Shown here: piece by piece, positions 12,700 through 18,655 of the stretch | How positions within the stretch are numbered: position 1 is the stretch's first letter | Layout of the letters: the number at the start of each line of letters is the position of its first letter | Origin: Bacillota bacterium | GTDB taxonomy: Bacteria > Sysuimicrobiota > Sysuimicrobiia > Sysuimicrobiales > Segetimicrobiaceae | Assembly (NCBI GenBank): GCA_021324255.1 | Contig: JAJPJL010000106.1 | Span: forward strand, 1-46,171 | Direction: 5' to 3' | DNA length: 46,171 nucleotides | Program-made: the position numbers and the translations under genes | Notes under the pieces: model-generated | What the model saw: only the letters and a program-made list of their open reading frames with translations | Databases searched by the model: none | Told to the model about the DNA's origin: nothing

Positions 12700-15600
12700 A
12701 TGGCCAACATCCAAGTCACGCACGACTCCAACCCGAACAACGCGCGCAGCGAATCAAGCATCGCCATCAACCCCAACAACCCGCTGCAGATCGTGTCCGC
12801 CTCGAAAAAGTTCGTCGACATTGAAACGTACAACTTTACGCTGGCAACCGAGTATTCGACGGACGGCGGGCAGACCTGGCACGACTCCGGGCCGCTGGCC
12901 ATGCCCGGCTTCACGGTCATGACGGATCCCACGCTGGCGTGGGACGACATCGGGAACGTGTACCTGGTCGGCTTGGGCGGTACCCTCGGTACGACTCCGC
13001 CGGTGTTCCACACCACCGGCATCGTCATGTACAAGTCGGCGGACGGCGGCAAGACGTGGGGCGCGCCGTACCCCATCCCGGGAACCACCGGCGCCGACAA
13101 ACAGTGGGCCGCGGGCGACAGCAACCCGGCGAGCCCGTATCACGGGAATGTGTACGCGGTGTGGGACAAGCTCGACGCGCCGGGCGGGATGGCGTTCGCG
13201 CGCACGCTGGATCACGGGGCGAGTTGGACCGGCGCAGGCGGCGCGGCCGCCGGGTCCCTCATCTCCACGGGCACGTCCTATCCTGAGATCGATGTGTCGG
13301 CGGACGGCACCATCTATATCGCCTCGCTCGGCTCCAACGAGATTCAGTTGCTGGTCTCGACGGACGGCGGCAACACGTTTCAGCAGTCGGCGACGCCGCC
13401 GGCCACTGGGATTACGACCATCCAGGACGTGCTGCCGCCCACGGACTCGGGCTTTCCGGCGTTTCCGGGCGGCACCTTCCGCGTGCTCACGGATCCAACC
13501 GCTTGTTCGTCCGGACCGATGGTCTTCGTGGCGTGGGCCGATTATCGCGAGGGCGTCTCGCGCATCTACTACGCACATTCGAACGACGCCGGGGCGACCT
13601 GGACCACGGGCGCGTCCGGACAGCCGCTGCTTACCCAGCCGATCCCGTCCAATGTTCAGCACTTCCATCCGCAAATCGTGATCGATCCGAGCGGTGTCGT
13701 CGCGTGCACGTTTTACGAGTTCGGTCCGAAGCCGTCGAAATACATGATCGATGTGATCATGTCCCAGTCGTTCGATCACGGCAGTTCGTTCAACTACCTC
13801 GTCGTGACCGACCAGCCGTGGGATCCGTCTGTTGACGCGCCCCTGGCCGAGGCGTACCCGGACACGACCTTCATCGGCGATTACTTCGGACTCGACGCCA
13901 GCACGCTCGGCTTCTACCCGCTCTGGACGGACACACGCACGGGCATTCAGGAATTGTGGACTGCGATTCTGCCCGAGAAGGGCTGCGAGTTCATCATCGA
14001 TCAGAGCACCATCGGGCAGGATGAAGTGGATACGCTGCGCAAGACGCACGGGCCCAGCGCGGTCATTACGGACGCGTTCCGGGTCGTCGTGGATGGATTC
14101 ACCGCGGCACAACTTGGGGTAACGAGTCCGGCGTCGACGCTCGCGGTCGCGTCGCCCACGACGGGCATGAACGTGGTCTGCACCGGGAACGCGTCCGCCA
14201 CCGGCGCCTACGGCGCGCAAGTGCAGCGGTTCACGTTCTTCTACAACCTGGATTTCGGCACGGACGCCGGCGATCCCGCCTTCGGGTTCAGCGGGCCGAC
14301 GGAGATGCTGACCCTTCACGTGACCGTCGGCGGCGTGTCGGCCAGCGGCCAGATCGAATTGATCAAACAACCCGATCCGTACATGCTGCACGGCGACCCC
14401 GCGTGGTTGAGCGTCGATCTCCGTGTCTTCCCAATCCGGCAGGGCGAAGCCAAATTCGGCCAACCCATGGGCGATGCCACCACCGCCAACACCTTCATCC
14501 AGCAAGTGGCGTGGTCGCTCACGAAGGGAAACGGAACCGCGGCCGGCCAGTCCTTCGACGACCCGAGCGTGCTCTCGCCCGACGAGGAGGGCTCGGCGCT
14601 GTACCTGACGCCGGCCGATGAGCACAACGTCCCCGTCTTCAACTTCGCGCTTGCCCGCGTGCGCTATATCGGCCTGATCGGCGCGGCCGACGTCCGCGTG
14701 TTCTTTCGGCTGTTCTCGGCGCAGCAGACCACCGGCATCTACGACTATCCGCCCGGCGAACAGTATCGACGCGCGACGAATCCCGCAGGCCAGCCCATCC
14801 CGCTGGCCGGCGTCATCGCCAACGAGTACGTGACCATTCCCTGTTTTGCGCTCCCCCGGGTCGACACGACCGCCTCCCCCATGAGTCAGCAGCTGGACTC
14901 GCGGGTCGACGGCAGCGGGAACACGCTCGGCAACGTGCAGACCATCACCGCCCATGCGGATGGCTCTGAGGTGGACACGTTCTTCGGCTGCTGGCTGGAC
15001 ATCAATCAGCCGTTCCGGCCCGACGGCGTAACGCCCAACAACGTCTTGCCGTTGAAAGCGGTCGGTCCGATCGACGGGCCGTTCACGGATCCGAGCAACC
15101 CGCCTAAACCCATCGGTCAGGCGATCCTGCGAAACCTGCATCAATGCTTGATCGCCGAAGTGGCGTTCGACCCGGCGACCATCCCGGTGGGCACCGATCC
15201 GTCGAACTGGGACAAGCTGGCGCAGCGCAATATCGCGTGGAGCCCTGCCGGCTCGGCGCAAGCCGCCACGACGTTTGAAATCCGTCCGACCAGCCCCGAG
15301 CTCCCCGCGGGAGAACGGCCGGACGAGCTCATGATCGACTGGGGAACGACACCGGTTGGCAGCAGTGCCTCCATCTATCTACCGGCGGTGAGCGCCGACC
15401 ACGTGCTCGCGATGGCCTCCCGGATGTACACGTACCATGGCCTGACGCGCGTCGACGACCACACCGTGCAGTGCAAGACGGTCGGCGTGTCTTACGTGCC
15501 GATCCCGCCGAGCTCGGACCGCACGTACGCGGGGCTCCTCTCCATCACGCTCCCGCCTGCCCTGCGGCGCGGCCGGACGCATACGGTGGTGGTGCGCCAG

Positions 15601-16281
15601 GTCACGAACGCGTCCCGCGAGACGCGCCGGCCGGCGGACGGGCGCACCCGCGGAACGCGAGCGGCCGCCGAATCGACGACCCGCTTGGAGTGGCGACGGG
15701 TGGTCGGTGCGTTTCAGCTCACCATCCCGGTGCGCCAGAAGGGCGCGTTGCTGCCGGCGGAAGAACGAAATCTGTCCGTACTGCGCTGGATCGGCGAAGC
15801 GATTCCGACGACCGACCGGTGGCATCCGGTGTTCCACCGTTACCTCGAGGTCATGAGCGGTCGCGTGCGCTCCTTCGGCGGCAATCCCGAGGGGATCTTA
15901 CCGTCGCCGTGGGGCACCGGCGTGCCCGGTCTCCCGGGGTACCCCGGGCACCCGGGCCACCCTGGACACCCCGGGCACCCGGGTCATCCCGGCATCGGCG
16001 AGCACGAGCATCGTCCGTCGTGTACCGGGAAGGTCGACGGTATCATCTACGACCGCTTCGGCGATTTCGAAGGGTTCATCCTGGAGACGATGGAGGGGGC
16101 GCGGCATCGATTCGAAAGCCGCGAACCGCGCGTGCGCGCGATTGTCCAGCGCGCCTGGATGTCACGCATCCTTACGACCATCGTAGTGCGGCACGATCAT
16201 CCGCACAGTCCTCTGGAGATCGTGTTGCACGGCGCACCCCCGGATCAGGAGGAGAGCTCAGGCCGCCGGTTCAATACGTGA
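12700..16281 (+). CDS. Large sialidase-type (BNR/Asp-box) beta-propeller protein with collagen-like Gly-X-Pro run
   Basis: The 1193-residue protein begins MANIQVTHDSNPNNARSESS with no visible signal peptide. The first ~430 residues carry at least six Asp-box repeats (STDGGQTW, SADGGKTW, TLDHGASW, STDGGNTF, SNDAGATW, SFDHGSSF), the mark of BNR/exo-alpha-sialidase propellers. Catalytic sialidase residues cannot be confirmed. The middle (about 430-1065) is beta-rich and unrecognised. Residues 1074-1097 are eight consecutive Gly-X-Pro triplets, five of them GHP. A final ~90-residue domain (about 1105-1193) starts CTGKVDGIIYDRFGDFEGF and looks like a small beta-barrel. Codon use is visibly less GC-rich than in the core genes, suggesting acquisition. 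Carbohydrate binding or an extracellular structural role is a guess. Confidence 0.7.
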   Translation: MANIQVTHDSNPNNARSESSIAINPNNPLQIVSASKKFVDIETYNFTLATEYSTDGGQTWHDSGPLAMPGFTVMTDPTLAWDDIGNVYLVGLGGTLGTTPPVFHTTGIVMYKSADGGKTWGAPYPIPGTTGADKQWAAGDSNPASPYHGNVYAVWDKLDAPGGMAFARTLDHGASWTGAGGAAAGSLISTGTSYPEIDVSADGTIYIASLGSNEIQLLVSTDGGNTFQQSATPPATGITTIQDVLPPTDSGFPAFPGGTFRVLTDPTACSSGPMVFVAWADYREGVSRIYYAHSNDAGATWTTGASGQPLLTQPIPSNVQHFHPQIVIDPSGVVACTFYEFGPKPSKYMIDVIMSQSFDHGSSFNYLVVTDQPWDPSVDAPLAEAYPDTTFIGDYFGLDASTLGFYPLWTDTRTGIQELWTAILPEKGCEFIIDQSTIGQDEVDTLRKTHGPSAVITDAFRVVVDGFTAAQLGVTSPASTLAVASPTTGMNVVCTGNASATGAYGAQVQRFTFFYNLDFGTDAGDPAFGFSGPTEMLTLHVTVGGVSASGQIELIKQPDPYMLHGDPAWLSVDLRVFPIRQGEAKFGQPMGDATTANTFIQQVAWSLTKGNGTAAGQSFDDPSVLSPDEEGSALYLTPADEHNVPVFNFALARVRYIGLIGAADVRVFFRLFSAQQTTGIYDYPPGEQYRRATNPAGQPIPLAGVIANEYVTIPCFALPRVDTTASPMSQQLDSRVDGSGNTLGNVQTITAHADGSEVDTFFGCWLDINQPFRPDGVTPNNVLPLKAVGPIDGPFTDPSNPPKPIGQAILRNLHQCLIAEVAFDPATIPVGTDPSNWDKLAQRNIAWSPAGSAQAATTFEIRPTSPELPAGERPDELMIDWGTTPVGSSASIYLPAVSADHVLAMASRMYTYHGLTRVDDHTVQCKTVGVSYVPIPPSSDRTYAGLLSITLPPALRRGRTHTVVVRQVTNASRETRRPADGRTRGTRAAAESTTRLEWRRVVGAFQLTIPVRQKGALLPAEERNLSVLRWIGEAIPTTDRWHPVFHRYLEVMSGRVRSFGGNPEGILPSPWGTGVPGLPGYPGHPGHPGHPGHPGHPGIGEHEHRPSCTGKVDGIIYDRFGDFEGFILETMEGARHRFESREPRVRAIVQRAWMSRILTTIVVRHDHPHSPLEIVLHGAPPDQEESSGRRFNT
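15919..15990 (+). repeat. In-frame 9-bp tandem repeats encoding Gly-X-Pro
   Basis: Eight 9-base units encode GVP, GLP, GYP and five GHP. The DNA units differ at synonymous sites (GGG/GGC/GGA/GGT, CAC/CAT, CCG/CCT/CCC), so the repeat is maintained at protein level rather than being a recent slippage product. Confidence 0.85.
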
Positions 16282-16449
16282 GCGTTCGGCCCGGCGGGGC
16301 ACCGGGCGAGCTGCGGCCTGATTCGCGCGAACGCCGGCGCCACTCAAGCAGGAGCGGCCCCGGGTAGCGCCAAACGATACCGCAGGGCCGTGACCTCGGT
16401 CCAGGCCACGTCGTCTGTCGGATACGCCTCATGCGCGTCGGAGCGCCGC

Positions 16450-17121
16450 ATGAATGACCACCACCCGGCCGATCACCATGCTGCGGGCGAGGAGGCGCGC
16501 CACCACGGCGGCCACGAGCACCAGGCGGTGCCGTCGGACCTCGCGCTCCGGGTGAAGGCCCTCGAGTCGCTGTTGGTCGACAAAGGACTCGTGGATCCGG
16601 CCGCGCTGGACGCGCTCGTGGACATGTACGAGCGCAAAGTCGGGCCGCGCAACGGCGCCCGGGTGGTCGCGCGGGCGTGGGTGGACCCCGCGTACAAGGA
16701 GCGCCTCCTCCGCGACGCGACGGCCGCGATCGCGGAACTCGGGTACGGCGGCGCCCAGGGCGAGCACATGCGCGTGGTGGAGAACACGCCGGCCGTCCAC
16801 AATCTCATCGTGTGCACCTTGTGCTCCTGTTACCCGTGGTCGGTGCTCGGCCTGCCGCCGGTGTGGTACAAGTCGGCGGCCTACCGGTCGCGGGCGGTCA
16901 TCGACCCTCGCGGTGTGCTCCGCGAGTTCGGCCTCGAGCTCCCCGACGACGTGGAAGTGCGCGTGTGGGACAGCACGGCCGAGCTGCGCTATCTCGTGCT
17001 GCCTGAGCGTCCCGCGCACAGCGAGCACCTTGGCGAGGAGGAGCTCGCGGCGCTCGTCACGCGCGATGCCATGGTCGGGGTCGCCAGGGTGACGATCCCC
17101 CCGGGGGCGCGGCGGCCATGA
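16450..17121 (+). CDS. nthA: Nitrile hydratase alpha subunit, cobalt type
   Basis: ATG 16450 has GGAG six bases upstream; 223 residues. The metal-site motif VCTLCSCY places Cys122, Cys125, Ser126 and Cys127. Thr in C-T-L-C-S-C marks the Co(III) class, where the Fe class has Ser. The downstream [20 protein letters not shown] matches NHase alpha. The N-terminus is His-rich (NDHHPADHH...HHGGHEH), unusual and perhaps metal-binding. The enzyme hydrates nitriles to amides. It is first in the order alpha-beta-activator, overlapping the beta gene by ATGA. Thiocyanate hydrolase gamma is related but usually has a separate neighbouring subunit set. Confidence 0.93.
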
Positions 17122-17777
17122 ACGGCGTGCACGACATGGGCGGGATGCACGGCGTGGGCCGGATCCCCTATGAGCCGGACGAGCCGGTGTTTCACGAGCC
17201 CTGGGAGGGACGGGTGTTCGCGCTGAACCTCGCGATGCGGGCGTGGCGCAAGTGGAACATCGATGCGGGCCGCTACGAGATCGAGCTGATTCCACCGGCC
17301 GAATACCTGCGCATGAGCTACTATGAGCGGTGGTTCGCGCGGCTCGTCGCGCTCATGGTCAAGACCGGCCTGGTCACGCGCGAGGAGGTGGCCGCCGGGA
17401 GGCCGGCCCCGGGCACGACCAGGGCGGAGCCGCCGCTCAGGGCCGCACGCGTGTCTTCGATGACCCGAACGGGAGCGGCCGCGAGCCGCGATCTCCCCGT
17501 GGCCCCGCGCTTTCAGGTCCATCAACGCGTGCGTGCCCGCATGATGCATCCCCAGGGGCACACACGGCTGCCGCGCTACGTCCGCGGCAGAGTCGGTACG
17601 GTGGAGCGCGACCACGGGGTCTACGTGTTCCCCGATTCCAACGCGCTGTTCGCGGGGGAGCGTCCCCAACACGTGTACTCCGTCCGCTTTGCCGCGCGCG
17701 AGCTGTGGGGCGACCAAGCGTCCGCGCGCGACGCCGTCTACCTCGACCTGTGGGACGAGTACCTTGAAGCGGCCTGA
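17118..17777 (+). CDS. nthB: Nitrile hydratase beta subunit
   Basis: The 219-residue protein starts [16 protein letters not shown], the standard NHase beta N-terminus. It has the helical region with [19 protein letters not shown] and [19 protein letters not shown]. The C-terminal SH3-like barrel includes [29 protein letters not shown] and [12 protein letters not shown]. It pairs with the alpha subunit to form the active heterodimer and the substrate channel. The start overlaps the alpha stop (ATGA). A Pro/Arg-rich linker (about 95-130) separates the two halves. Confidence 0.93.
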
Positions 17778-18147
17778 TCCGCCATCCGGGGCCGGGCATC
17801 CCGAGCCGCCGCGTCTTCCCCGGGACTCCGACGGGCCGACGTTCGCCGAGCCGTGGGAGGCTCAGGCGTTCGCGCTGGCCGTGACGCTCGCCGAGGGGGG
17901 CTACTTTTCATGGAAGGAGTGGTCGGCGGCGCTGGCCGACGAGCTCCGGGCGGCCAGCGGTCGCGGTGAGCCCGACGACGGATCGCACTACTACCGGCAC
18001 TGGCTCGCGGTGCTGGAGCGGCTCGTCGCGGCGAAGGGGCTGGCGGATCCGCGGGCTTTGCGGGTGCGAAAGGAGGCGTGGGCCGAGGCCTATCGCCGGA
18101 CGCCGCACGGGAAGCCGGTGGTGTTGCACCCGTCGGAGGCTGAGTAA
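17764..18147 (+). CDS. Nitrile hydratase accessory (activator) protein
   Basis: The frame, probably from TTG 17764 inside the last codons of nthB, encodes 127 residues. It resembles the p14K/NHase-activator family, itself homologous to the N-terminal part of NHase beta: PTFAEPWEAQAFALAVTLAE, YFSWKEWSAALADEL and YYRHWLAVLERLVAAKGLAD. In Co-type systems this protein escorts the alpha subunit and mediates cobalt insertion by subunit swapping. The third position in the operon fits. The first ~20 residues are Pro-rich and non-conserved, so the exact start is uncertain. Confidence 0.85.
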   Translation: MKRPDPPSGAGHPEPPRLPRDSDGPTFAEPWEAQAFALAVTLAEGGYFSWKEWSAALADELRAASGRGEPDDGSHYYRHWLAVLERLVAAKGLADPRALRVRKEAWAEAYRRTPHGKPVVLHPSEAE

Positions 18148-18184: not shown

Positions 18185-18655
18185 ATGGCAGCGGTGCATA
18201 TCGCCCGCGTTCGAGTGTACCAGGACAAGCGGCCGAACCGTCGCGCCTTCATCGGCGGCTTTCCCGAGCCGATCCGCTACGGCGTGAACACCGGGATCAA
18301 GGCCTTTTACGGGCTGGAGCCCGAGGAGGAGCTGCCGAGCACGCTCGACCATCTGGTCGGGGCAGCCGCGGGGTGACTGACCGGCACCCTCGCGGGCGCG
18401 CTGGAGGCGCGCGGGATCCCGAGCTATCCCGACAAGCTGTGGACCGAGGCGGAAGGGACGATTGAAGCGCCGGATCGCGTGATGCGCGTCACGGAGATCC
18501 GGGTCACGTACCACCTTGTGATCCCGCGCGGCAAGCGCGAGGAGGCGGAGCGGGCGCTGGCCGTGTTCGAGCGCGGGTGCCCCGTGGCGCAGACGCTCAA
18601 GGGATGCGTGCGGATCACGCATGCCTCGGAGATCGTCGAGGAAGGTGCGTCCTAG
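18185..18655 (+). CDS. OsmC-like thiol-peroxidase-family protein with in-frame TGA at the catalytic Cys position (candidate selenoprotein)
   Basis: ATG 18185 has GAGGTG five bases upstream. The frame runs to TAG 18653-18655 (156 codons) with one interruption, TGA at codon 64 (18374-18376). The context LDHLVGAAAG-(TGA)-LTGTLAGALEARGI is where OsmC-like proteins carry their peroxidatic Cys. All 92 codons after it are open and family-like, including the second conserved Cys in FERGCPVAQTL (Cys132). A GC hairpin lies just downstream. TGA is an ordinary stop elsewhere here (e.g. mreC, speE), so a changed code is unlikely. Readings: selenocysteine (favoured), or a recent nonsense mutation of a Cys codon. 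The product would reduce organic peroxides. It follows the nitrile hydratase operon by 37 nt. Confidence 0.72.
18387..18415 (+). promoter_or_regulatory. Candidate bacterial SECIS-like hairpin after the in-frame TGA
   Basis: GCGCGC (18396-18401), loop TGGAG (18402-18406) and GCGCGC (18407-18412) form a six-pair stem. It can be extended by CCC (18387-18389) with GGG (18413-18415) across a 5' internal loop. The loop begins 25 nt after the TGA and has G in its second position, in line with the known spacing and loop rule for bacterial SECIS elements. In GC-rich coding DNA such hairpins also occur by chance. Confidence 0.45.

Follow-up and report, generated by a model that had tools for sequence, protein, structure and literature searches.

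The window analysed here, a stretch of 46,171 nucleotides (positions 1 to 46,171 of contig JAJPJL010000106.1, assembly GCA_021324255.1), has a GC content of 71% and belongs to a genome that is 94.85% complete in 142 contigs. Its forward strand carries a gene of the OsmC family (18185–18655), recognised by its PF02566 match and its orthologs, that would encode 156 residues if the TGA at codon 64 (18374–18376) is translated as selenocysteine (Sec, U). From the ATG at 18185 to the TAG at 18653–18655 this TGA is the sole in-frame stop. The read-through product is a member of the OsmC family by domain score (PF02566, 51.9 bits against a curated cut-off of 27.5, E 1.1e-13) and by fold, since the structure predicted from the family alignment (mean pLDDT 93.8) has OsmC and Ohr proteins as its best matches in the PDB. 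HMMER alignment to 1ukk, 1qwi and 1nye places codon 64 on the first, peroxidatic active-site Cys and places C132 (18578–18580, same strand), the presumed resolving Cys, on the second ('GCPV') Cys of these solved proteins; both U64 and C132 are invariant in our alignment (A1). The two active-site positions of OsmC proteins would then be occupied by Sec and Cys, with Sec replacing the first Cys. A first-pass annotation of this DNA had claimed one frame broken only at codon 64, a TGA at the catalytic Cys and a retained second Cys, all of which agree with these alignments, and its claim that TGA is a normal stop elsewhere is borne out even by several orthologs of this gene, which themselves terminate in TGA.

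Directly upstream, at a distance of 37 nt, lie genes for the alpha subunit, beta subunit and activator of nitrile hydratase (16390–18147, forward strand), identified by Pfam and NCBIfam matches. Among 20 related loci this arrangement is kept only in a genome of the same genus (G001), and we therefore give the adjacency no general meaning and consider nitrile hydratase probably not a functional partner. Comparison of loci across the family found no neighbour common to the whole of it. The nitrile hydratase alpha subunit has a CTLCSC metal-site motif together with a match to the NHLP leader peptide model, and upstream of the three genes a protein of 1193 residues (12700–16281) shows weak matches to BNR/Asp-box repeats.

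Conservation of the TGA codon

Searching 61 genomes gave 21 orthologs; they all come from the order of the window's genome and carry the TGA (20 of the 21 were extracted and read). An ortholog with 52% identity in a metagenome-assembled genome of the Methylomirabilota (L015) led us to search that phylum, where 65 copies, full or partial, occur in 57 of 95 genomes and all 65 have a TGA; direct reading covered 50 of the loci. In a wider sample of 386 genomes, 14 had a match outside the window's order, 13 of them with TGA, and after removal of G226, which duplicates a known sequence, 12 further TGA genomes remained. Alignment of homologues at position 64, proposed as a check in the first-pass annotation, finds TGA in every orthologous copy that covers the codon, approximately 98 from approximately 90 genomes of uncultured bacteria, a count that excludes one fragment ending at the Sec codon (in G086). 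No intact Cys ortholog was found in the searches of the 61, the 95 Methylomirabilota and the 386 genomes. A plasmid search was without a match, and nothing was found in the phylum of G048, for which there were only four genomes.

Two matches were considered as Cys orthologs and rejected. The match in G412, which lacks the TGA, is a Cys-bearing OsmC placed with the Cys clade by the tree, and the reading frame in G086 ends exactly at the codon in question (GGGTG followed by TCCGCTAAAG) with unrelated sequence after it. The latter copy (L108, contig C204 of G086, positions ~1380–1480) turns into unrelated sequence once the first two letters (TG) of the Sec codon are passed; it is an ambiguous fragment, truncated or rearranged, or else misassembled.

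A tree built from 41 Sec and 17 Cys sequences separates Sec from Cys on one branch with support of 99/96; it has long branches, and its inner order is less sure. One sequence from a genome of the window's order (L054, G040:C104) groups inside the Methylomirabilota branch, a placement that reflects either horizontal transfer or a misbinned contig.

Selection acts on the protein both ahead of the TGA and past it. Across 14 pairs, dN/dS is 0.02–0.17 upstream of the codon and 0.04–0.20 downstream, which indicates purifying selection in the two parts alike; the description of the downstream codons in the first-pass annotation as open and family-like is in keeping with this lack of erosion. A conserved in-frame UGA with selection on both flanks is the pattern by which selenoprotein genes are recognised.

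The hairpin and the selenocysteine machinery

Published rules for the bacterial SECIS element (bSECIS) call for a loop of 3–9 nt with a G in its first two positions, a stem of 4–16 bp, a loop placed 16–37 nt past the UGA and an energy of at most -7.5 kcal/mol (PMC13188914). Every one of these is satisfied by a hairpin at 18396–18412 on the forward strand, GCGCGCU-GGA-GGCGCGC, in which 18396–18402 and 18406–18412 form a stem of 7 bp, the GGA loop lies 25–26 nt past the TGA and the energy is -11.2 kcal/mol. The first-pass annotation had described a GC hairpin with its loop 25 nt past the TGA and had suggested a bacterial SECIS prediction; the hairpin is real and agrees with the published rules. 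Its argument from the hairpin and the open frame is weaker than it implied, given how often both occur in DNA of this composition: 77 TGA triplets in the window are flanked by open frames as long as those of the OsmC gene, a hairpin with SECIS geometry follows 17% of all TGA triplets in the window, and one as stable as that of the OsmC gene follows 5.5%. An open frame with a hairpin is weak evidence in a sequence of 71% GC and would be insufficient alone; it is homology and conservation that decide.

The hairpin is itself conserved. Pairing holds in 90% of stem cells over 64 distinct sequences, compared with 27–61% in slid controls; the stem had been picked from the same 64 sequences on which it was scored. 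One stem pair shows a compensatory change, being G-C in 46 sequences and C-G in 17, a swap that is probably a single inherited event. Within the window's clade, no other six-codon stretch of the gene is under synonymous constraint as high as that formed by the hairpin codons (+7 to +12), which is what a use of the RNA itself would predict. In one sub-branch (L060–L084) the stem at this position is shorter or weaker, and an alternative hairpin closer to the TGA competes with it.

All four genes that the first-pass annotation had named as a check, selA, selB, selC and selD, are present in the window's genome, which therefore has the SelA, SelB, tRNA-Sec and SelD by which a selenoprotein-producing bacterium is recognised. 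The genes for SelA, SelB and tRNA-Sec are adjacent in a row on contig C83, and selD (383 bits; G000:C92:36492-37412, L109) has an in-frame TGA of its own, in MVACAG-U-ASKLSP, at the position where SelD proteins usually have Sec. This selD is very likely a selenoprotein gene itself, independently of the OsmC gene. Among genomes that carry the OsmC gene, selB was found in 18 of 21 from the window's order and in 49 of 57 Methylomirabilota; 11 of 78 are without a selB match, five of them with a strong tRNA-Sec, and most of the 11 are fragmented assemblies. Genomes that lack this gene commonly have selB too, so its co-occurrence is supportive rather than discriminating.

Reading of the UGA codon

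The mid-gene stop is almost certainly read as selenocysteine, and we assign a probability of about 0.95 to the gene encoding an OsmC-family peroxidase in which the UGA at codon 64 is translated as Sec. This reading is supported by the homology to OsmC with both active-site positions, the Sec machinery and the conserved TGA, together with selection on both sides of the codon, the separate Sec and Cys clades and the conserved hairpin with its compensatory change. Of the outcomes listed against it in the first-pass annotation, none of those open to testing came true: the Sec genes are present, the TGA is kept and the codons past it show no erosion.

A single-base change is enough to turn TGC or TGT into TGA, and the codon might on that account be a Cys codon called wrongly or a mutation that disabled a now decayed gene. 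The identical codon in the ~98 copies, from independent assemblies, and the purifying selection past it speak against both, and with so many independent orthologs carrying the TGA this explanation is already refuted, leaving it a negligible chance. Hardly more probable is that translation stops at the TGA and restarts just past it, giving two separate OsmC pieces. Such a restart would suit the Methylomirabilota branches, where the codon after the TGA is ATG (TGAATG), but of the 21 sequences aligned first, 19, with the window's among them, have a Leu codon CTN with a variable third base after the TGA, which is no start codon. The split would moreover cut through the active-site helix of the predicted structure (H53-74), and it accounts neither for the Sec machinery nor for the choice of TGA over TAA or TAG. 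We regard as similarly improbable a suppressor tRNA that reads the UGA as Cys, Trp or some other residue. Our search for other UGA-reading tRNAs was non-exhaustive and Sec insertion is something that we infer, as are the catalytic cycle, the substrate and the reductant, which leaves such a tRNA some room; against it stand the complete Sec system with its TGA-containing selD, the use of TGA to end genes elsewhere, several orthologs of the OsmC gene among them, and the conservation of the SECIS-like element.

Under translation as selenocysteine, Sec-tRNA(Sec) would be made by SelA using selenophosphate from SelD and would be brought by SelB, which would bind the hairpin past the UGA. Membership of the family suggests that the product is a peroxidase, most likely one with Sec64 as the attacking residue and Cys132 as the resolving one, by analogy with the mechanism established for OsmC and Ohr. 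The peroxide attacked by Sec64 would probably be an organic hydroperoxide, as it is for Ohr/OsmC, and Cys132 would then resolve the oxidised selenium by forming a selenenylsulfide with it.

Relation to known OsmC proteins

Reports of OsmC-like selenoproteins with the motif UxxT date from 2005 for the Sargasso Sea and from 2008 for the GOS data (PMC1088965, PMC2398784), and a 2026 review includes such proteins (PMC13188914), so that the first-pass annotation was right in stating that they are known from metagenomes. The window's protein resembles them in its OsmC fold (PF02566/COG1765), the apparent replacement of Cys by Sec and the bacterial SECIS; it departs from UxxT in having Gly at +3 (U64-L-T-G-T68; across its branch of the family the motif is U-[LM]-T-G-T or U-M-[YF]-G-T), a comparison that extends to the reported motif only, for which the authors' counting may differ. 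The NCBIfam model NF041052, an OsmC-related (seleno)protein that is Sec-bearing by its name, matches the C-terminal two thirds, yet the window's protein reaches only 14.7 bits, and the best of seven members scored 28, against a cut-off of 95. With the OsmC/Ohr thiol peroxidases (E. coli OsmC, 1qwi/1nye; T. thermophilus OsmC, 1ukk) it shares the fold and both active-site positions, but it has the predicted Sec for the first Cys, an identity of ~20% and a score of 33.7 bits against the TIGR03562 cut-off of 85.8.

Proteins of this kind have been known since 2005, and what is apparently new is the branch, which is unmodelled and seems to be Sec-only. In the open-access literature searched we found no paper on the gene in the window's order or in the Methylomirabilota lineages. 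Standard annotation halts at the UGA, and wherever present the gene is called as a fragment or skipped; with a branch-specific model, a conserved redox selenoprotein would be regained for the Methylomirabilota and the window's order. The apparent absence of Cys orthologs makes the branch well suited to testing why certain enzymes retain selenium. One speculative answer, which we think doubtful, is that the branch is Sec-obligate across several phyla, its reaction being impossible with Cys, and that Cys forms are for this reason missing from the ~90 genomes.

The 2026 review cites a Methylomirabilota metagenome-assembled genome with 63 predicted selenoprotein genes (PMC13188914). In four Methylomirabilota loci of the present set (L089, L092, L106 and L107), a Prx-like gene lies ~0.3–0.9 kb upstream of the OsmC gene and has an in-frame TGA at the usual UxxC position (FYRGRW-TGA-PYC), and these genes probably encode a second selenoprotein.
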